Positions 3,007 through 64,000 of a stretch of DNA of 64,000 bases are shown here, piece after piece (within the stretch, counting starts at the first letter, position 1; every line of letters starts with the position of its first letter). The position numbers and the translations under genes were made by a program. Below the pieces are notes generated by a model that worked only from the letters and a program-made list of their open reading frames with translations, did not search any database and was not told the DNA's origin. The DNA is from Amphiura filiformis (lineage: Eukaryota; Echinodermata; Ophiuroidea; Amphilepidida; Amphiuridae), in the NCBI RefSeq assembly GCF_039555335.1, contig NC_092636.1, positions 53,871,706-53,935,705 of the forward strand. The letters run 5' to 3'.

Positions 3007-4349
3007 TAAATGCTCTTTAACGTGTGACGGCGGTGATACCGCAGTTTTGAAGTTAAATGTCAGTCTTGGTAGGGCCTGATAATTATCAATTAATTTTAGG
3101 AATACATTTCTTATAATAATTATATATTGAATTGTTGCGGAATTATTAGTCCATAAAAGCTCATAAATGCATGCATGTACTATTTGGCCCATTTTTACAC
3201 ATACCTATACATCGGAACCATTTACGTCAATTGCAAATGTAAGGTTATCGCCCGTTTAATTTGCTACCAATTCTCATTAATATGCGTCAAATCCGTAGAA
3301 GGTCATAACAAAGGTGAAAACCTCACATATTTGAACAAAATAATGAATGAGCGAAACAGGTGTTGGGCAAGTTCAAAGTCATTTTGAAATCCCAGGTGTT
3401 GATAGGTGTTTGCAAGTTCATTTATGTTGAGAAATAATGCATTGGATTTGTACTGTGTGCTATAGGAATGAGGTGACATTACAAATAGGCCTACAGGGTG
3501 GTCCAAAAAGAACTTTACCCAACTTGAACTTAATTTCTCGGAGTTTAGAGCAGCTATTCCATTATTGTTACATATTTTAAATATATACATGTATCTTTCT
3601 TAGAATATGTGCTGAAAGAATGAGAGAAAAATAAGTAATTTAACAAATAATGGCAGTAATTTTATTTCAGAGGGTCGATAATCACTTTGTCCACGCGTAA
3701 TGGGATGTATCCGATTACCATCAGCATTCTTACATTTCTGGAAACGAATTCGAATAATGGGAGACTTGTTAAAGGATGATTATCACAAACAAACTCATGA
3801 GTATCTAAATCTTGTTTATTCATATTCATTTTTTACCAACCATTTACAAATCAACCAGAATAACTGAACACAGTGCTACAATTATTGATAATATTCTTAC
3901 AAATAACTATAACGATATTAAAAAGGAAATAATTGTTACAGATATCAGTGATCATTTACCAACTATAATGATCAACAAACAGGTAGCAAGGAAAACGCCA
4001 ACTGAAAAGAGAAACTATTTCTATAAGAGGACTCACAATGAAAGTAATATTAACAACTTAAGACAAAAACTTTCGAATGTAGATTGGAATGGCAGAATTG
4101 GATAACGAAGATGTTAACGATAGATACAATAAATTTGTACATATACCTTTAATAAATTATATGATGAATCGAATGCATACCTTTAAAGAAACATAAGTGT
4201 AATAACAAAAAAGAACCGAAATCTCCGTGAATAAGTAAAGGTCTTCTCACAAGTATTAATGTTAAAAATATATAAAAGGTATATTCAAAAATCATGTGAT
4301 GATAGGCTTGCAGCATTCAAAAAATATAGAAATAAGTTGAATGCTTTAA

Positions 4350-7292
4350 GAGCCACTGTCTGTAAGATTCAGACTCTTGTGATTCAAGTGCGTCATAAAT
4401 TTTCTTTAAAAAAAATAGGATGATGCAACATTGGTCCAAGAAAATAACCCCAAAGTTTTAGCTTCCTCGCTCATTTCGTTTGTCCGCAAAAAAATAATGA
4501 AATTTTGGCCCCAAAAACATCGTTAAATGGTTTATCATCTAGCAATGACTACAAAATTGTGCGCCAACATTGGCCCAGTAAATAGAAAACAGTTTTTGAA
4601 TCCTTCTATGGGTGTCATTACAATTACACGAAAAAATGGTTGGGTTACCATTGGCGCGTCGTAATAAACAAGTTTAAAATATTAGTGAAAAGCGCCCTCG
4701 TGTTGTTTTCTGTGGCTTGAAACTTGTTGCGCCATTAAGCACCCATATAAAAAGCAAGCTGAAATGGATAAACTAATTATTTTGAAGCAAATGCAAATGC
4801 AAAATTGATGGGTGCTCGTTGGCGCTAGAAGAAAATTGGGATCAAAGGTCAAATTTTCTTATTTTGCGCCATTTTCACGCCTCATTAATTTTGTGCGCCA
4901 AGGTCAAAGCACATTAAAAGTGGTGTTCAGTAGTAAACAAACTATAACTCTAATAAAAGAAACAGAAACAAGCTTGGGTCCTGTTGGTTTAGTATTTTTA
5001 ATGATTTTCTAAATATCACCCTAAAGCCTAGTAAATAGTAAATAATAGACCAAATCGGGGTTCCATCAATATTCAAGCATCCACAACAGGACGCGCCAAC
5101 AGGTACCCGTGGTGTTTTTATTTCATTCACCATATTTAAGTGCTGTTATTTGCATTTATGTAGAAATTAGTTTGGGCTCATGTTGGCGCAAGGATGTTTT
5201 AGGGGTCAAAGGTTAATCCAAAACCATAAAGCGCTGCTTTATGATAATTTGTGCAACCAATATGCAATCTTCAAGCATCCACTACTATGTGCCAAAGAGT
5301 ACCCATGATGTTTTTACTTCAATCAGTTTATCTAAGTGCTGTCAATTGCATAGAAATTAGTATGGGTTCATGTTGGCACAAGGATATTTTTAAGGTCAAA
5401 GGTAAATACAAAACCATAAAATGCTACTTTTTGATAGTTCCTGCAACTAATACGCTATCTTCAAGCGTCAACTACTAGATGTGCCAAAAAGTACCCATAA
5501 TGTTTTTACTACAATCAGTTTATCTAAGTGCTGTTCCTTGCATTTATGTAGAAATTTATTTGGGTTCATGTTGGCGCAAGGATATTTTAAGGGTCAAAGG
5601 TCAATCCTAAAGCACAAAGAGCAACTTTTTTGCGAGTTTGTGCAACTGTGAAAATGTGCGCAAACATTGTCCCAATTTCTACCTCAAATGGAGTGTATAT
5701 TTGCTTGTTGAAGTCATAACAATGGGATGCTCATGGCACAGTGATATTTAAGAATAAAACACTTTAATTTTGTTGAATGCAGAATGTGTATAAATTGAAA
5801 CTTACCCTGCATTTTCAGATCATGTGACCATCCACAACAAACCAAGTGGAAGGTACACATTTTAAGTTTTCATGGTTTACAAAAATATTTAGGAACTCCA
5901 AAATATTATAAGCCTGCACATGTTACAAGTATATTGATTCATTGCAGTCAAAATGCACTATTGATCTTCATATAATAATATTAAGCTTGTAACTTCTGCA
6001 TTTTTATTTAAAATTGGTCACATACTTGTAATATTTGGCTCTTTAATTTAAAGTTTAAATATCAATATGCCAATATTATCCCAGGGATTTTTATTAAGAA
6101 ATTTAATAAATCGAGTTGGCAGGTTATAGGTAGTGAAAAATTATGGGATCTTGTTGCCATTGAAATTACCAACACTCAAAGAATGCAATTTGTCATATTT
6201 TTTTATAGTTTTTTGTATTGACCTTTGACCCTCAGAATATCATTGCGCCAACATGAGCCCAAACATATTCCTATAGATACACAAGTAACAGCACTTGGAT
6301 AAACTAAATGAAGTTATAACACCATGGGTACTTGTTGGCGCATCGAGAAATGGATACTTGAAGACTGCATATTGGTCGCACAAACTAACGTAAAAGTAGC
6401 ATTTTGTGATTTTGAAGTGACCTTTGACCCTTAAAATATCCTTGTGCCAACATGAGCCCACACCTATTTCCACAGAAATGCAAGCAACAGCACTTGAATA
6501 AACTAACTAAAGTTAAAACACCATGGGTACTTGTTGGCATATCTAGTAGAGGACGCTTAAAGTTCGCATATAGTACGGCATGGCATATTATTTACAGTTT
6601 ACTTGCCTTTTAGATGATATTTAGAAAATCATAAAAAATACTAAACCAACAGGACCCAAGCCTTTTACTGCTTCTTTTAGTAGAGTTACAGTTTGTTTAC
6701 CACTGAACACCACTTTTTCTGTTCTTCGACCTTGGCGCATGAAATTAATGAGGCGTGAAAATGGCTCAAAATTAGAAAATTTGACCTTTGACCTCCATTT
6801 TCTTCTTGCGCCAACGAGCACCCATCAATTTTGCATTCGCATTTGATTCTAAATAATTAGTTCATCCATTTCAACTTGTTTTTTTCATGGGTGCTTAATG
6901 GCGCAATGAGTTTAAAGCCACATAAAACAGCACGAGGGCGCTTTTCACTAACATTTTAAACTTGATTATTACGACGCGCCAATGGTAACCCAACCATTTT
7001 TTGTGTCATTGTAATGATACCCATAGAAGGATTCAAAAACTGTTTTCTTTTCACTGGGCCAACGTTGGCGCACAATTTTCTAGTGGCTGCTAATTGATAA
7101 ACCATTTAACGATGTTTATGGGGCCAAAATTTCAATGATTTTTTTCGGACAAACGAAATGAGCAAGGAAGCTAAAATTTTTGGGGTAGTTTCTGGGACTG
7201 ATGTTGCATCATCCTATTTTTTTTAAAGAAAATCCATGACGCACTTGAATCACAAAGTCCCATTTCGGTCCCATTCTTACCGACAATGGCTG
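4350..7292. mobile_element. 2.9-kb foldback element at a TTAA target
   Basis: The element is flanked by TTAA (4346-4349 and 7293-7296), and the paralogous site in copy 2 (near 9706-9710) has a single TTAA and no insert. Ends are GAGCCACTGTCTGTAAGA and, reverse-complemented, CAGCCATTGTCGGTAAGA. Long arms (roughly 4350-5650 and 6230-7292) are inverted copies; mirror-image 66-codon frames at 4812-5012 and 6621-6821 are shadows of that symmetry, not genes. The arms contain direct subrepeats of about 195 bp (near 5170, 5365 and 5565). TTAA duplication suggests piggyBac-type mobilisation; no transposase was seen, so it is non-autonomous. Confidence 0.8.
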
Positions 7293-8115: not shown

Positions 8116-9154
8116 TTAACAATAAATAATTTGTAATCTCTCTCTCAGGGAAGGTGTCGTTCCAGATGAATTAAAAATAGCAAAAGTAATTCCTATCTAT
8201 AAAAAAGAGAATCCTGAATGTTTTTTTAATTATCGTCCTGTTTCAGTTTTGCCATGTTTTTCCAAAATACTTGAAAGACTTGTGTTTAACAGATGCATGA
8301 ACTATACTGACAAATATAACATATTAAATGATAAACAGTTTGGATTTAGACCAAAACATTCTACATATATGGCAATTTTAGAATTTATTGACAAAATTAG
8401 TAATTCAGTTGAAAAAAAAGAAACAACCTTAGGAATATTCCTGGACTTGTCAAAAGCCTTTGATACTCTTGATCATAGCATATTATTATATAAGTTGGAA
8501 TACTATGGATTTAGAGGTAATGCCTTGAAATGGTTTGAAGATTATTTATCAAATAGAAAACAGTATGTGTATTATGATTCATGTAAATCTCAATATAAAA
8601 ATATTCAATGTGGAGTGCCCCAAGGATCAATCCTGGACCCATTATTATTTCTTTTGTATGTAAACGACATCATAAACACCTCATCGATTCTTGAATTTTT
8701 GTATTGTTTGCCGACGATACCACCATCACCTATTCACATGCAGACATTTTGTCTAAGCATCACGAATTCAAGTCCTATCATATATGTTTTGTTTACTTCT
8801 TTAACACGCAAAGTATAGACCAGACAGGTCAACTAATAGCACTCTTAATGTGGGTCTACTTTTCGGCGTAGTGGTAAAGCCTAACATTTCCCGCCGAGTT
8901 TAGAGCAGCTATTCCATTATTGTTACATATTTTAAATATATACATGTATCTTTCTTAGAATATGTGCTGAAAGAATGAGAGAAAAATAAGTAATTTAACA
9001 AATAATGGCAGTAATTTTATTTCAGAGGGTCGATAATCACTTTGTCCACGCGTAGTGGGATGTATCCGATTACCATCAGCATTCTTACATTTCTGGAAAC
9101 GAATTCGAATAATGGGAGACTTGTTAAAGGATGATTATCACAAACAAACTCATG

Positions 9155-11250
9155 AGTATCTAAATCTTGTTTATTCATATTCATTTTTTACCAACCATTT
9201 ACAAATCAACCAGTATAACTGAACACAGTGCTACAATTATTGATAATATTCTTACAAATAACTATAACGATATTAAAAAGGAAATAATTGTTACAGATAT
9301 CAGTGATCATTTACCAACTATAATGATCAAAAAACAGGTAGCAAGGAAAACGCCAACTGAAAAGAGAAACTATTTCTATAAGAGGACTCACAATGAAAGT
9401 AATATTAACAACTTAAGACAAAAACTTTCGAATGTAGATTGGAATGGCAGAATTGGATAACGAAGATGTTAACGATAGATACAATAAATTTGTACATATA
9501 CCTTTAATAAATTATATGATGAATCGAATGCATACCTTTAAAGAAACATAAGTAAAAAAAAAAAAAAGAACCGAAATCTCCGTGGATAAGTAAAGGTCTT
9601 CTCACAAGTATTAATGTTAAAAATAAGTTATATAAAAGGTATATTCAAAAATCATGTGATGATAGGCTTGCAGCATTCAAAAAATATAGAAATAAGTTGA
9701 ATGCTTTAATACGAAAATAAAAAAAGAGTATTATCAAAAGAAATTTGAGTCAGTTAAACACACTTTACAAAAGACATGGAAAACAATTAATTCTATAATT
9801 GGACGTAAGAAAAATAGAAATGTACAAGCTCAATTTAAAAATACTCAAGGTGATATTATACTTGATTCTGAGAAGATTTCAAATGAATTTAATAACTTTT
9901 TGTCAATATAGGACCAAAATTAGCCTCCAATATCAAATTTACTGGGAACAATTATTATGATTATTTAGAAAAACCATTTAGCAGCAGTATGTATATGAAA
10001 CCAATCGTAAGAAATTATAAAAATTATACATAAATTCAATCAAAATAAGAGTGCTGGTCATGACAACATTGGTAACTACATTGTTAAAAGAATTGCTAAA
10101 GAAATCTCAGATCCATTAAGGAAGTCTCCGGCAATCACAACATTATGCCTTATATGAAAGAAAAATAATTATCAAGCACGAATCACATAGTTTTAATTAA
10201 AACAAACTCATAGTGACCATAAAAACGAATAAAACATCCCGACTCTCAACACGCGATATTCAAAATTCCCGGGCACCGAAATTGTCGAGTGCAATGACGT
10301 CCCAATAATACAATGAAGGCTGACGACAATTGAGCACAAACAATTATTACGTCATTGCACTTAAACTATTTCAGTGCGGGAATTTTGAATATCGCGTGTT
10401 GAGAGCCGACTGTTTATATTAGTTTTTATGGTCAATATGAGTTTATTTTAAATAAAACCATATGATTCGTGCTTGATAATTATTTTTCTAACATATAAGG
10501 TATAATGTTATGATTGCCGGAGACCCCCTTTAACAATAATTTGTAATCTCTCTCTCAGGGAAGGTGTCGTTCCAGATGAATTAAAAATAGCAAAAGTAAT
10601 TCCTATCTATAAAAAAGAGAATCCTGAATGTTTTTTTAATTATCGTCCTGTTTCAGTTTTGCCATGTTTTTCCAAAATACTTGAAAGACTTGTGTCTAAC
10701 AGATGCATGAACTATACTGACAAATATAACATATTAAATGATAAACAGTTTGGATTTAGACCAAAACATTCTACATATATGGCAATTTTAGAATTTATTG
10801 ACAAAATCAGTAATTCAGTTGAAAAAAAAGAAACAACCTTAGGAATATTCCTGGACTTGTCAAAAGCCTTTGATACTCTTGATCATAGCATATTATTATA
10901 TAAGTTGGAATACTATGGATTTAGAGGTAATGCCTTGAAATGGTTTGAAGATTATTTATCAAATAGAAAACAGTATGTGTATTATGATTCATGTAAATCT
11001 CAATATAAAAATATTCAATGTGGAGTGCCCCAAGGATCAATCCTGGGCCCATTATTATTTCTTTTGTATGTAAACGACATCATAAACACCTCATCGATTC
11101 TTGAATTTTTGTATTGTTTGCCGACGATACCACCATCACCTATTCACATACAGACATTTTGTCTAAGCATCACGAATTCAAGTCCTATCATATAGGCCTA
11201 TGTTTTGTTTACTTCTTTAACACGCAAAGTATAGACCAGACAGGTCAACT
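9155..11250 (+). pseudogene. CR1/L2-like LINE fragment, copy 2
   Basis: Paralogue of the fragment at 3800-8830. Endonuclease tail at 9167-9460; linker running on through the intact TTAA site near 9707; RT block at about 10550-11195 with FGFRPKHST, FLDLSKAFDTLDH and GVPQGSILGPLLF (copy 1 has Asp for the Gly of LGP). It shares with copy 1 the MITE insertion and the frameshift before FADDTT, so both lesions predate the duplication. It retains the Trp codon that is a stop in copy 1. It is not functional as it stands. Confidence 0.8.
10120..10529. mobile_element. TTAA-flanked MITE in LINE copy 2
   Basis: Same 410-bp element as 7707-8115 at the orthologous position of the duplicate, with TTAA at 10116-10119 and 10530-10533. 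Its arms differ from the first copy by a few bases. Confidence 0.8.
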
Positions 11251-12009: not shown

Positions 12010-15000
12010 ATGGAGACGCATCACACATGTATATTACTTGTATTCGCTCTAACTTATTTGGCAACATACACAACAGCTCGTGCACAACCATCAGATGAAT
12101 TAGCACAAAGACAGTACCAATTAACTCTAGATACATTTGGGTATATTAATGAACAATTACGGGCCCAAGAGAGAATGTTAGAGGAACGAATTAGACTCTT
12201 GGAGGAGAAAGTAACAGAACTGGAGTCACGACCCCGCCAACGACCTGCTGGAGGGAGGGGAGGGGGAGGCAAAGGAAAAGAAGGTGGTAGCAAAGGTATG
12301 TTTGACTTAATATGTTTTTTTTTGTTGGTTCGCCCTTTTATTTCTTCTTTTTTTGCCAAAGTCGCTGACGAATTTGGCTACGCAATCCATAATTCCATAC
12401 TACATGTACTACATTGTACCTCATGCCAAAAGAAGACCTGAATATCCACGTACCTCCTATCTAAGGTATGATGAGGACATGATTCAAGCAAAACAGATAG
12501 CCGCACTTGCCAAAGATAATAATAATAATAAAACGGCATTTCGCTTTCTGAATACTCAGATTCCTCAAAGCGCGTCACGGGTCGATATGCTGCCAAGCCC
12601 CAAAGGGCAGCGCAAGTTGACCTCAATGCTGAGTGTGACAGACAACAGGCCCGGGCTGATCCCCTGCTCTTTACGAAAAAGGCCTGCAACTTTTACATGT
12701 CCAGATATTGCTCTTCTGGTACATGGGACCACCATTTTACGTGACTCTCCGAACCACGGCATGCTATGCACCAACTGTGGTGTCTGCACGTTTAGGGCCA
12801 CAATGAGTGGGATAGAGGATAAATGAGAAAGCTCATGATCTTACAACCTTCGGACCTATAGCCTAGCACACCAAACTACATGACCACCCTCTACTTCTAG
12901 GCTAATACTGTAGCCTTCTACAGGGTGGACTAAGGATGACCACCATTTCCCTTCTCCTCTGTTCATCCGCCACTCGACCGCCAGTGGACTGCCGTTGACT
13001 TTGGATGTCGTAACTCATCCGCCTTCACTACTGATGCTAACTGCTGGTGCTAGCTCGCTAGATCCGCCGTTGATCTTCGCCATAACCCTGGCCAGGGAGG
13101 CTAAGGGGGTACCCAGTGCTTGCCATGGGCACTGCCCCCACGTCTATGGAAAGGGGAGGGGTGACTCACTGTCCCTCCATGGGCTGCCTTAAAAAGGGTC
13201 CCATGCCGTATCCAAAGATCACTGTGCATTGAGAAATTTTGTGGTCGCCTGCTCCGCAACCGAAGTATGAGGAGTCTGTTAGTTTATATTTAAATAAAAT
13301 TAAAACTTCTATACAGATGTAAATCCTCGATGTTATAATTTTATTACATATATATTTATTACACATATATAAACCGTTATAAGACCTGGCTGTAAATTAA
13401 CTAATTGTTGAATTCCATGCGTAGAATGTTCATCGTGTGATTACTACTGCAATGATGCAGCATCTGCCTAGATGTTAATATCAACAGCAAAGGATTTACA
13501 TGTATACCTATAACGCATTAACATAATGACATTGCATATCAAAATAATTTCTCAAGTCGCATTCAAGTTGAAATTATAGCATGTGGTGTGGGGTGTGTAG
13601 TGTGTTTGCCAGAGGTTCATCATCTATGCTATCCTCCTGAAGTTCTGAGGACTTCAACATAACATTTAGCAACACCCCGATCATGCCGATGCACCACTGA
13701 AGACCTCTTTAGTTGTGTATGGGTGTATTGTATGGGTGTTGTCTAACTTGTCTTACCTATCCCAGCGGCTTCATTTACCATCACGTTTCACGTTTGTTCT
13801 CCACAGACCCAGGAGATGCGGCACCACACACAGATGAGCCGGTTCTTACACAGGTAAGACAATGCCTCAGTATTTCCTTGAACAGTTAACATGTTAAATG
13901 GAAATTATTTCAACAATCCTACATTATAGACTTATCCAATTCCTACACCTCAATGGCAGACATTTACAGGATCCATCCCAACTGAAATGTGAAATAATAC
14001 AGGCACAGTGGTGTCATCGAAGTTGGAGCAGGTAATAATATAACATATATTATCATTTATAATTCTGAAGGCTCGAACTACGACGAAGGCCCCAACTACA
14101 ACGAAAGCTCCGACTACAACAATGAAAGCTCCAACGACGACAATGAAAGTTCCAACGACAACAATGGAGGTTACTACAACAATGAAGGCACCAACCACAG
14201 TCAAGTCAACTACCGTTGCACCTGTACCTACAACTCTTGCAGCTTTCCTGTTTTTGAATACACATGTGCTTCTATCTATCAGAGTGGTTACACTACATCT
14301 GGAGATTACACCATCGATCCCGATGGCTTTGGCTCAAATGCACCATTTGCGGTCTACTGCGATATGGATAATGGTGAAGGTAAATATATACAATATTAAA
14401 TGTTCATATAGTTCATATCAATGCATTGGTTTACAACCCTGAGTGTCCAATTATGCCCATCTCTCTTTCGAAGCGTTAAGCTGAATTTATATCGATCGCC
14501 AAGCGATTGCGATGTGCACACCGCTTTTGGAAAGCGATGTGCAATCGCCGAATTATCCCCAGACACTGAAATGACGAAAGCACTTACACCAAAATTTGGG
14601 CCTCTGGTCAGCCATTCAGAAAGAACGCATAATTTATTCAAGCAATGTTTTTAGAAAATTCCCTGGAATCAGCCAAATAATAATGATTTCTGGACAACTT
14701 TTTCGCCCGAAGTAAATACCCGACCGAGCATCCCAACAATTACTGGGAAGCTAGTTGCGCCTATAACCCAAGAGTTCCCCTTAACACTGGGAACTATTTC
14801 GCTAGGCACTCATCTAGCGATCAACTCCTTATCGAGGAGGAAAAGCTCCATATACCAATGGACAAATATTTCGCTAGGCAATCCTCTACACGATCATCTC
14901 CTCGGAGGAGGAAATAAAAAGCTCCATAATACCAATGGAGAGAATATAAAATGCCGCGGACTTACATGAATTCGCTAGGCAGTCATCTAGCGCGTCAAAA

Positions 15001-18000
15001 GAAATTAAATGGCTGATACCTTTCTCATTTTCTTATTATATTCATATTCAGATTACATAGTGGACATCGGTAAATTTACCCATGCCAAATACCCAGTAGG
15101 TAGATGCCTACGGATATTGGAACTACTAAATAGAATTGATTAATGTAGCACATGTATAATTCTGTACATTAAATCGATCATTTTAGAAAAATGATCCAAA
15201 AACTGCCACAAGGACTAAGTTGTTAACATCCGTACCCTGTACCATGGAATAAGCTATTTCTGATCCCCTCATTTCCTTTGCTAGTAAATACCGCAAGATC
15301 CACACTTGTGATTATTTGAAGAGCCTCTGAATTTTACGGTTGAGGCCTCTTCACCACAGTGGACCATTAACCCGATTTTTTGTTTGAACATGTTGAAGGA
15401 GTTAATTGCAAAACCCGTTATTTTTCGCTGCCAACGCCAAGCAAACACAGTGCCATGCTCTGCACATTTATAAATTCGAATACATAACTAGGATACCATG
15501 TCTAATACAAAAGGCAGCCTTTAACAGAAATTAACGCGATAACCAGCCGGCTGCGCAACCTCATAAAAACTTGAACCCAATATTTCATTTTTATTTATAC
15601 TTTGATGAACAAGAAAATCTGAGGGCATAGTACTTGGCCCCTGTCTAGCTATCCCATGCCAACCTGGTGTTAATTCCTTCCTTCCTGCTATAAATAAAAT
15701 TACTCGGCCTAAGACTGAAGGGCATTACCACCTAAGACTGAAAGTGGTACCAATTGTATCGATTTTGTTAATGCTTCTGAAGACACCCTAGAGTGAACAC
15801 ACCTATACAAAATAGAATTTAAGAAAATACAACTGCGCAACAGAATATAATGTGTTTCTGAGATAGAAATTGAACCTAAAGTGATCTACCCACGCACACT
15901 CTCACACCCGTATACAATAGTCATACTACTATGTAACTAAAAAACCTCAATGTAATTAGAATATTATTCAAATTCGGAGAACTCTCAATCGAATATATTT
16001 TCATTTCTCTTTCGTATTTCATCTCATTCCTAATTACCTTTTAATTTGAAGACCGACACTTTATATGTACTTGTCTCACTACTGCGAGACTCAAATTTTA
16101 TGACACACTATCAAACTCTTGAAATCAATTTTAAACAGATATCAAATATGACATATGGGGAGTGGTGGGTGGGATAAAAAATTTCTGCATCCGTTCATCT
16201 GAAAAACTGACAGAGAATGGCCTTAGCCAACAAAATGGCCACCGACGGCTCCGAGCAAGGATGCCCGTGATTGGCCCTCCTGATACCAAACAAGGCACCC
16301 AATTGGCTCCCCATGAAAACAACGCGTGACCTCACGAGGGCGATCCCATTTCAGCTGCAGGGATAATTTTACGTTTCATTTGATGTACAAATTAAACTGC
16401 ATTTTCCGATATCACTGTATTATTGCCATTACCTTTCTAACTTTCTTCGTGCAGGTATTACCATTGTTGGACACGATAGTGAACAAGAAAATATCATTGT
16501 GAATGGTCATGACGCACCCGGATCTTATATCTTACAACCACGTTACGGTAGTCGTGGCAACGAGATTAGTATGAGACAGCTAGGGGCTCTTACTGATGCG
16601 TCCTGGGAATGCCGACAGTTCGTCAGGGTGGGTGTTATTTGATTATCGTATAACTTTACATGTGCAAACGGCCCTTTTCAGAGCCACCATTTCGGATATG
16701 GTATATTTAATGTCCAACTAAATTCACCTGACACGGACAGTTTAACACGGTCATGTAATGTACATAGTTACACGTGCATATGGTTTGCCAATTTTCTGTG
16801 TCATCGCACTCATGCGAGACGCATCATCACTGAGTGTCAGCCTCTGCTATATGAAATATTTCATACATATAGGCCTATAATGTTACGTACTCACTGAGTT
16901 TAGTTCCAGACATTTTTAGAGTAGAATACTGCATTATCAATGGTTTGAGATGGACCACAGGCCTCTAGGTCTGTGGATGGGCTGGTGACACAGTCGTAAT
17001 TCTTGGAATAGTTTGCAAGCTACTCACTCCCTAGGTTGTGGTTTGGTTGCACTATGTGGATGACACTTTTGCAATCATCTATCAAGCCCATGTGCAGAAA
17101 TGTACAACACGCATTGGCACAGTAACAGCACTAGCATCATATCACATATCAAATTCGCTAACGAATCTGCTATTATTATAATGGGGAAACTCCCCACACG
17201 TAGTGAAACTCCAACTCTTATAAGGAACTCTCCAGATATCGGTGTATGCCTCCAGAAAACAACTCAACAAAAACCTCCAAAAACTTGGTGAGTGCTGTTG
17301 AAGACTTGTTATTTGAACAACAATTTCACAAATCGTTCACAATTCCAACTTTTTTTTTCTTCAAAAATGTCAGTATGGCTGCAGGAATTCTGCTATGATG
17401 AAACGAGACAGGAAGAGTGGCTTGACATACGCTTGGTGGGTTGATCGCTATGGTGTAAAACATGTCAACTGGGGTGGTGCTCCTACCGACAGCGGCAAGT
17501 GTGCTTGTGGAGGTAAGTGCGCGAGGGATTGGCTTCAATTGGTTTTAGTGTGTTGCATAATAATAGCCTAGTAAAAGGTGTGGCAAATGTGCATGGTAAT
17601 TGTAGGCAGCTCACATAAAAACATATCAAAATTCCCGGAAAATCCACTGCAGCAGTGCCTAATTAGCATAAATCCAAAATGGCCGCTTTTGCAGGTAGTG
17701 GAATTTCAGAGTTGGTCATATCTTGTTAAAAAAACCTTACCAATGTATTCCTCTGGTCATAAGGGTTTAGAAAAAGTATAGTTTGACCACAGAATTAACT
17801 TCTAAATTCCACCCCTGCATAAGCGGCCATTTTGGAATGATGCAAATTAGTCCCGGTTCCACTACTTGGATTTTCGGGGACTTTCGATGTGTTATTTAAT
17901 ATTTCTGAAATGAATGGTGATTAAGTGGATGCTGTAATTTCTGTTGCAATTATTGTCAGCTTAACCCCTTTTGTTTTTAATTTGAATGGCCTATAGTGTA

Positions 18001-18699: not shown

Positions 18700-19566
18700 A
18701 CACACAAGAAGATAAAAACGTGTTCTATAGACCACTTGACATCACTGTTTATCAACAAAGGCGAGGGACTCGTCTATCGATATGCTCGAACGAGCCACTA
18801 CAGTGACTACACTGATCAATGGCTTTCTTGTACTTTATGAAATGTGGCGGGCGATTTAAAATACACGTGCCCTTAGCAGACTATGATGCGTACGCACACT
18901 GCAGGGCAAAGAACAGTGTGAGAACAATGTAAATTGTCATAATGCGCACGCATACTGCCGGGCAATGACGTCACATGCCAAGTGGTCTATAAGCTGCATA
19001 TTCTATCAGCGACTGCTAGGCCTTTACCTTGTTTAGGATTTTCAAAAGAAGTACTTGCATGTGCAACCATGACTGTTTCAAATAGCCCGCCAAAGTCATG
19101 CAGGTAACTCCGAGGTTGTGCATTGAATTGGTTTGAATGAAGAATACTACGGAAATAAGCGCCTTTTGTTAGGAAAGAAGTTCCACATGAGTAACGTGGA
19201 CATTGTGGATATTAACCTCTATAGTGAATACGAATACGGTACTTGTTGAATGAATATTCTTCGTCGAGTATTTGGATGGTGAATGACCCTTTATATATAT
19301 AACTAATTGTTGGTCTAATCACTTGAATGATTTTACAAATCTACGTTTATTCAATAGAGGTTATCCACTTTACTCATGTGTAACTTCTAACAAAAGGCGC
19401 TGATTCCCGTAGTATTCCTTATTCAAAACATTTCAATGCATGACTCCTGGCGGGCTATTTTGAAACAGTCATGGTTGCACATGCAGGTACTTCTATTGAA
19501 AGTCCTAAACAAGGTATAGCAGTCGTTGATAGTATATGCAGCGTATAGAACACGGATAACCTCTAT
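18700..19566. mobile_element. Foldback element with nested MITE
   Basis: The left arm, from about 18720 to 19230 apart from the MITE at 18728-18989, matches the reverse complement of about 19350-19566. Shared blocks include TACCTTGTTTAGGA, TGCAACCATGACTGTTTCA and GCGCCTTTTGTTAG. The left arm has TAGGCCTTTA at 19017 where the right arm reads TATA-type sequence, a small insertion of the GGCCTA kind. No coding capacity was seen. Confidence 0.65.
18728..18989. mobile_element. TA-flanked MITE nested in the foldback
   Basis: Perfect inverted ends TAGACCACTTG / CAAGTGGTCTA with TA on both sides (18726-18727 and 18990-18991). The interior is imperfectly palindromic, with ATGACGTCA near the right end. 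The host foldback's other arm reads straight through the site, so the insertion is clear. Confidence 0.65.
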
Positions 19567-20480: not shown

Positions 20481-20577
20481 TAATGGCCGCGGATTAGAAC
20501 GTTCGTGGATAAGAATGGCCTTGGGCCTTCGGCCCGCGGCCATTCTTATCAACGAACGTTCTAATCCGCGGCCATTA
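20481..20577. repeat. Near-perfect 97-bp hairpin
   Basis: Two 40-bp arms (20481-20520 and 20538-20577) are reverse complements with one mismatch, around a 17-bp GC-rich centre that is itself mostly self-complementary. It starts TAATGGCCGCGG and ends CCGCGGCCATTA. It abuts the right end of the inverted-repeat element at 19842-20470. Confidence 0.85.

Positions 20578-24649: not shown

Positions 24650-64000
<39,351 letters not shown>

Follow-up and report, generated by a model that had tools for sequence, protein, structure and literature searches.

A TA-flanked GGCC octamer is over-represented in a 64-kb window, with exact six-base differences at TA between related copies

Described footprints at TA and a highly iterated octamer

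Transposons of the Tc1/mariner/IS630 group, including Sleeping Beauty, ZB, Tc1, Passer, and ISY100, target TA, duplicate it, and leave a few base pairs behind after end joining (PMC7913693, PMC9976928, PMC7827188, PMC3878927). The footprints described are 2 to 4 bp at TA for Tc1/mariner (PMC7913693) and 0 to 4 bp for Passer (PMC9976928), and Tc1/mariner overhangs are given as 2 or 3 bp (PMC3878927). Sleeping Beauty and mariner have 3-nt 3′ overhangs and footprints equal to the overhangs (PMC7827188), and the footprints listed for Sleeping Beauty include C(A/T)G (PMC3878927). For somatic Tc1, the typical scar is +4, at 78% (PMC13148408, citing earlier work). The cut vector ends, or backbone, of ISY100 were efficiently religated to the predicted TATATA junction (PMC2170065); in our reading, the junction was as predicted because the TA overhang is self-complementary. 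HIP1, by comparison, is a palindromic octamer that is highly iterated in cyanobacterial genomes (PMC4390886).

The window, by which we mean the whole 64-kb stretch of DNA that was analyzed, repeatedly contains the octamer TAGGCCTA, in which GGCC stands between two TAs. The likeness to the Tc1/mariner/IS630 group is one of form: at a LINE copy, at a satellite unit (52824), and at a shorter form with GGC (47247), extra bases lie between two TAs where the empty site has a single TA, and they number 4 (GGCC) or 3 (GGC), within the 2- to 4-bp range. Unlike in that group, the sequence here is GGCC, one product dominates at a density of about one per 3 kb, and no matching donor was found in the window. 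As with ISY100 (PMC2170065), the junction would be one predicted with a self-complementary overhang, although the 2-nt TA overhang of ISY100 was tested in vitro, whereas the pairing here, through GC or GGCC, is one that we infer. The likeness to HIP1 lies in a single palindromic octamer at high genome frequency (PMC4390886); HIP1 is associated with DNA methyltransferases, whereas two of the sites here are 6-bp insertion differences at TA and the sequence is eukaryote-like. piggyBac likewise has cohesive flanks that rejoin uniformly (PMC3878927), but it targets TTAA and leaves no footprint, in contrast to the TA target and putative 4-bp footprint here. An earlier note on this DNA, made from the letters alone, had held that no named system does this. 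That was too strong, since footprints of 2 to 4 bp at TA are a known class (PMC7913693). The kind of footprint is thus known from Tc1/mariner-type elements, and what sets this case apart is a uniform product with a core of GGCC, at a density of about one per 3 kb. Among the titles and abstract openings listed from the literature, none describes a GGCC footprint at this density.

Abundance of the octamer and its relatives

In total, TAGGCCTA occurs 22 times in the 64-kb window, compared to a mean of 0.48 and a maximum of 2 in 100 dinucleotide shuffles. The earlier note had counted about 20 occurrences by eye and had expected about one from composition; the count was borne out, and all 13 further positions that it listed are correct. 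Because five pairs of TAGGCCTA are mutual copies arising from a segmental duplication, the 22 occurrences collapse to 17 independent sites in the 64 kb. The copies outside the LINE and satellite sequences are listed here by window coordinates (no strand is assigned), with those marked as pairs or counterparts resting on the count and a flank comparison and the others on the octamer count.

3486..3493, TAGGCCTA
16870..16877, TAGGCCTA
28955..28962, TAGGCCTA
33090..33097, TAGGCCTA, pair with 46030
33946..33953, TAGGCCTA, pair with 46872
35242..35249, TAGGCCTA
37069..37076, TAGGCCTA; the counterpart at 48800 is TAGGCATA, one substitution away
38644..38651, TAGGCCTA, pair with 50308
39134..39141, TAGGCCTA, pair with 50797
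43096..43103, TAGGCCTA, pair with 54897
43673..43680, TAGGCCTA
44016..44023, TAGGCCTA
46030..46037, TAGGCCTA, duplicate of 33090
46872..46879, TAGGCCTA, duplicate of 33946
48051..48058, TAGGCCTA
50308..50315, TAGGCCTA, duplicate of 38644
50797..50804, TAGGCCTA, duplicate of 39134
54897..54904, TAGGCCTA, duplicate of 43096
61235..61242, TAGGCCTA

For the Markov comparison, masking removed the arrays, one copy of the segmental duplication, and parts of the duplicated LINE, leaving 48,583 bases; the satellite octamers at 52824 and 53986 fall in the masked part and are excluded from the count. In the masked sequence, TAGGCCTA was found 15 times, with 0.46 expected under an order-2 and 0.60 under an order-3 Markov model, and 60 simulated order-3 sequences contained at most 3. 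Among all octamers of the de-duplicated window, it ranks first by z-score and, when octamers with fewer than five copies are set aside, by ratio as well. The shuffles and Markov expectations rule out chance and composition as the source of the excess, which is real and nonrandom and is accompanied by exact six-base differences at TA. Only two of the 16 octamers formed by a palindrome between two TAs stand out, namely those with GGCC (TAGGCCTA, 15 versus 0.46) and CATG (TACATGTA, 11 versus 1.62); some of the others, which are largely A/T, are moderately raised. Within AT..AT, AA..TT, TT..AA, or TG..CA, GGCC is not enriched in the masked sequence. The titles and abstract openings listed from the open-licence literature contained no mention of TAGGCCTA as an inserted or over-represented sequence. 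The matches listed for it, judged by their titles, were mostly primers or bacterial work, with a few fish papers.

An octamer so far above its Markov expectation (15 versus 0.46 to 0.60) is HIP1-like, and it could be made or kept by a point mutation bias or by selection, as a binding site or through methylation-linked repair, with the filled and empty pairs described below being incidental. HIP1 itself is a precedent for one highly iterated octamer (PMC4390886), TAGGCCTA is perfectly palindromic and heads the enrichment ranking of octamers in the de-duplicated window, and for most of the 17 sites there is no empty counterpart to compare. We nevertheless consider this explanation unlikely: the 24 octamers with one mismatch sum to 19 versus 12.07 expected in the masked sequence, a mild rise only, and substitutions do not account for the two exact 6-bp differences at TA.

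In a comparison of 22-bp flanks, the octamers shared no flanking sequence except in the segmental duplicates, the LINE copies, and the satellite copies. TAGGCCTA is therefore not the core of a longer repeat, and that explanation was rejected. The earlier note had offered a tiny self-spreading insertion as its alternative, and a very short mobile element or a dispersed-repeat core would suit the high copy number and sequence identity. Nothing else points to it, however; the flanks of independent sites have nothing in common and six bases would hardly be able to move alone, so that we regard this origin as most improbable.

Related lengths were counted with the arrays alone masked and duplicates still included. 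The +4 form, TAGGTA/TACCTA, is below expectation (15 versus 25.5), and TAGGCTA/TAGCCTA is weakly raised (9 versus 4.2, seven sites without duplicates). TAGGGCCTA/TAGGCCCTA, a possible longer relative of the octamer, occurs 5 times versus 0.25 expected (four sites without duplicates), and TAGGGCCCTA does not occur.

28367, 32219, 43979, and 33515/46446 (the last two being duplicates), strand not given, TAGGGCCTA or TAGGCCCTA, from the count

The CATG octamer, TACATGTA, has 17 raw sites (e.g., 1865, 3586, 12401, 39753, and 59667). Ends of the form CA...TG, as in Tc1-type elements, would leave TA-CATG-TA. It was rejected as a proven footprint: it is enriched, yet its five duplicate pairs are all filled on both sides and no pair is filled in one copy and empty in the other. 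At 48806, the copy and its counterpart are set apart by 4 bp deleted from, or inserted into, the octamer.

The 17 sites tend to have an A six bases before and a T six bases after the octamer (22/34 when symmetrized, versus 10.8 expected; permutation P = 0.0088 over 16 positions with 5,000 samples of TA sites, for a pattern found after looking). The preference is not evenly symmetric, since the T follows at 14/17 sites and the A precedes at 8/17, and it is absent from the TAGCCTA/TAGGCTA and TACATGTA sets. It is suggestive of a possible target preference.

Filled and empty sites in related copies

Only the LINE octamer, the satellite octamer at 52824, and the GGC form at 47247 have a clean empty counterpart; for the other octamers, the window contains no empty copy. 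The sites compared are as follows (no strand is assigned).

11193..11200, TAGGCCTA, filled, second LINE copy; the first copy differs by exactly TAGGCC at TA; not polarized
8783..8784, empty TA, first LINE copy (paralog alignment)
52824..52831, TAGGCCTA, filled, degenerate 34-bp satellite unit; relatives at 41489, 53973, and 42233 empty
41489..41490, empty TA, duplicate counterpart of 52824 (satellite comparison)
53973..53974, empty TA, related satellite unit, position equivalent to 52824 (satellite comparison)
42233..42234, empty TA, related satellite unit, position equivalent to 52824 (satellite comparison)
53986..53993, TAGGCCTA, related satellite unit, origin ambiguous (sister-unit alignment)
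47247..47253, TAGGCTA, 3-nt relative, filled; duplicate at 34321 empty
34321..34322, empty TA, counterpart of 47247 (duplicate alignment)
50943..50949, TACAGTA, form of a known Tc1/mariner-type footprint; counterpart at 39279 without TACAG

LINE copy 1 reads TATCATA-TA-TGTTTTG from 8776, and copy 2 reads TATCATA-TAGGCCTA-TGTTTTG from 11186; the alignment thus confirmed what had been noticed by eye, an exact 6-bp difference at TA between flanks that are otherwise identical. The empty TA lies within an open frame of copy 1 (8126-8818) that matches the Pfam reverse transcriptase family RVT_1 (E = 1.2e-22). Outside indels, the two copies are 99.4% identical, and the difference is therefore recent; it is not polarized, because no third copy covers the site. 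In the satellite, the octamer at 52824 is filled and the equivalent TA is empty in the units at 41478, 53962, and 42222. These three empty relatives polarize 52824 as a gain, the one polarized exact gain in the window. In two independent clean contrasts, the LINE and satellite site 52824, exactly six bases were gained or lost at TA.

In six paralogous pairs (10,025 aligned bases, 44 indels), the sole 6-bp indel was the TAGGCC at TA in the LINE. A wider table of 15 partly overlapping pairs (13,402 aligned bases), with 58 indels kept after a flank-quality filter, contained six 6-bp indels; two of the six were TAGGCC at TA, one in the LINE and one in satellite unit 52813 versus its duplicate 41478, and no other 6-bp sequence was found twice. 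Of 11 indels of 3 to 12 bp with 2-bp microhomology, 5 were on TA.

The octamer at 53986 was rejected as a clean third case, because its alignment to the sister-unit sequences TACCACTTA/TAGCACTTA is no worse than that to an empty TA, and its direct counterpart in the other array (42222) is rearranged. It is ambiguous, being readable as a TA insertion or as a change of bases between two preexisting TAs, and the latter would favor mutation bias or selection. The GGC difference at TA between 47247 and its empty duplicate at 34321 is not polarized; a third copy near 59230 was rejected as an empty outgroup, and the direction is not set because that copy has a deletion spanning the site. At TA, TACAG is present at 50943-50949 and absent from the counterpart at 39279. 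This has the form of a Tc1/mariner-type footprint, with slippage as an alternative given the 4-bp microhomology.

The differences could also be losses, with the octamer ancestral and GGCCTA deleted by slippage between the two TAs, short direct repeats that could mediate such a loss. The LINE pair and the GGC case, being unpolarized, would allow for this. At 52824, however, the site is empty in three related units and filled in a single one, and deletion leaves the commonness of the octamer unexplained; we consider it very unlikely.

The relative ages of the octamers can be gauged from an interrupted segmental duplication of approximately 11 kb (31598-43437 versus 44488-55238), each copy of which carries the 34-bp satellite. 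Its blocks lie at 31.6 to 34.9, 37.0 to 40.0, and 40.6 to 43.4 kb and match parts of 44.5 to 55.2 kb, with 94 to 98.5% identity in the nonarray aligned parts. Five octamers are present in both copies (33090/46030, 33946/46872, 38644/50308, 39134/50797, and 43096/54897) and are therefore probably older than the LINE difference; in a sixth pair, 37069/48800, a single substitution separates the copies. The gain at 52824 is absent from the other copy of the duplication. Together, the shared octamers and the unshared gain suggest that the insertion process was active both before and after the duplication. Under a constant-rate decay model, the one-mismatch excess (approximately 7 per 15 intact octamers) corresponds to a rough 0.10 to 0.15 substitutions per site of accumulation, an estimate on which none of the readings here depends.

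Candidate origin as excision footprints

We tentatively read the copies of TAGGCCTA as excision footprints of a TA-targeting cut-and-paste transposon with a self-complementary cut tip, an origin that we hold to be quite possible, if short of probable. A Tc1/mariner/IS630-like element would insert at TA and duplicate it; on excision, the transposase would cut inside the element, so that a few tip bases would stay on each flank as an overhang. With a GGCC tip and a 4-nt stagger, the overhangs would pair perfectly to give TA-GGCC-TA. With a GGC tip and a 3-nt stagger, the GGC-3′ overhangs would anneal by their terminal GC, fill-in would complete the GGCC, and GGC or GCC between two TAs, as in TA-GGC-TA, would be the by-products of this route. 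Because the cut tip would be self-complementary, the flanks would rejoin uniformly. What we infer is the transposon, together with its tip, stagger, and route of repair, as well as a shared origin of the other octamers; for the transposon and overhang, this is because no GGC-tipped donor was found in the window.

The evidence for excision footprints consists of the clean contrasts in the LINE and at 52824, the GGC form at 47247, and the strong excess of the octamer. Further points in their favor are the excess of a second TA-flanked palindrome (TACATGTA), GGCC that is not enriched between other outer dinucleotides, the microhomology indels that sit on TA, the flank preference, and the precedents of Tc1/mariner, Passer, and ISY100. 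Against them stand the very high density and the dominance of one product, whereas experimental footprints vary, as well as the search of the window that yielded no GGC-tipped element, the under-represented +4 form, the weakly raised by-products TAGGCTA/TAGCCTA, the lopsided flank preference, the TACATGTA pairs that are all filled on both sides, and the basis in one polarized gain and a single 64-kb window. The earlier note had envisaged a TA-targeting transposon with GG...CC ends cut with 2-nt overhangs. Its reading of GGCCTA at TA as having the form of a TA transposon footprint stands in the two clean cases, but the 2-nt overhang fits worse, because the TAGGTA/TACCTA expected from it is not enriched (15 versus 25.5). 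Since the +4 product is not in excess and ISY100 provides a precedent, a footprint of cohesive tips is favored.

The same six bases could be added in one step without a transposon, if a TA-specific staggered break (made, e.g., by a domesticated transposase) had each 3′ end extended by GG and the ends were joined to TA-GG-CC-TA. Such a process would account for a product that is one exact palindrome, for a window in which no GGC-tipped donor was found and the +4 form is not in excess, and for a LINE difference that is recent, in copies 99.4% identical outside indels. Untemplated addition should, however, yield a spread of lengths; TAGGGCCTA/TAGGCCCTA (5 versus 0.25) hint at some spread, but TAGGGCCCTA is at 0. 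No polymerase known to us adds exactly GG, which also counts against one-step addition, and we judge this route rather unlikely. A wider proposal is that a TA-targeted process, ongoing and genome-wide, uses self-complementary GGCC ends to write exact GGCCTA and thereby contributes a main share of the small insertions in this genome; behind it would stand either a very mobile low-copy element of which this is the sole trace or a host-encoded TA-specific cutting and joining activity. This seems to us doubtful.

Donors for the favored excision footprints were sought in three ways: as inverted ends flanked by TA, exact over 8 bp and no more than 6 kb apart (best 30); as pairs of TAGG...CCTA spaced up to 8 kb (best 15); and in the sequence after every TAGGCC and TAGGC in the window. 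No GGC-tipped element was present in the 64-kb window among the best 30 or best 15 pairs or in the TAGGCC/TAGGC listing, and by eye no tip recurs after TAGGCC in the window. The earlier note had suggested searching for full elements with TA-flanked GG...CC ends, and two such pairs exist in the window, at 4416-7216 (18/20 matching) and 19034-19507 (17/20 matching). Both were rejected as donors, since each is the inner part of a longer inverted repeat and itself begins with GGA rather than GGC. TA-flanked inverted-repeat stretches at 20481-20577, 57673-58203, 59110-59356, and 19025-19516 are candidate miniature transposons; their outer ends, as listed, are not GG...CC. No transposase domain was matched among the eight open frames scanned with Pfam. 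The two LINE frames had no relatives in IMG/VR, and none were found with the reverse transcriptase alignment in a prokaryote genome set and IMG/VR.

Should this density extend across the whole genome, approximately 1 Gb of sequence (an assumed genome size) would carry approximately 300,000 identical six-base scars of transposon departures. Were they true footprints, the scars would allow excisions to be counted directly and bursts to be dated from scar decay, and the scar by itself would suffice to predict the tip of an undiscovered element. If there is no such element, mutation research would gain a new kind of process, one that inserts an exact sequence at TA. In both cases, scar tables of this type can be drawn up for any two related genomes.

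Paired octamers are also present in external contigs, in at least 120 stretches. The flanks of 10 stretches were inspected, and the open frames of three (L067, L085, and L089) look phage-like by eye. Within the window, exon-like frames at 60296-61950 and 13998-14396 match nidogen-like (NIDO) and fibrinogen C-terminal domains and, together with the LINE, point to an animal as the host; the long open frames in a 1-kb array of CATTA pentamers (29441-30462) look like repeat translations only.
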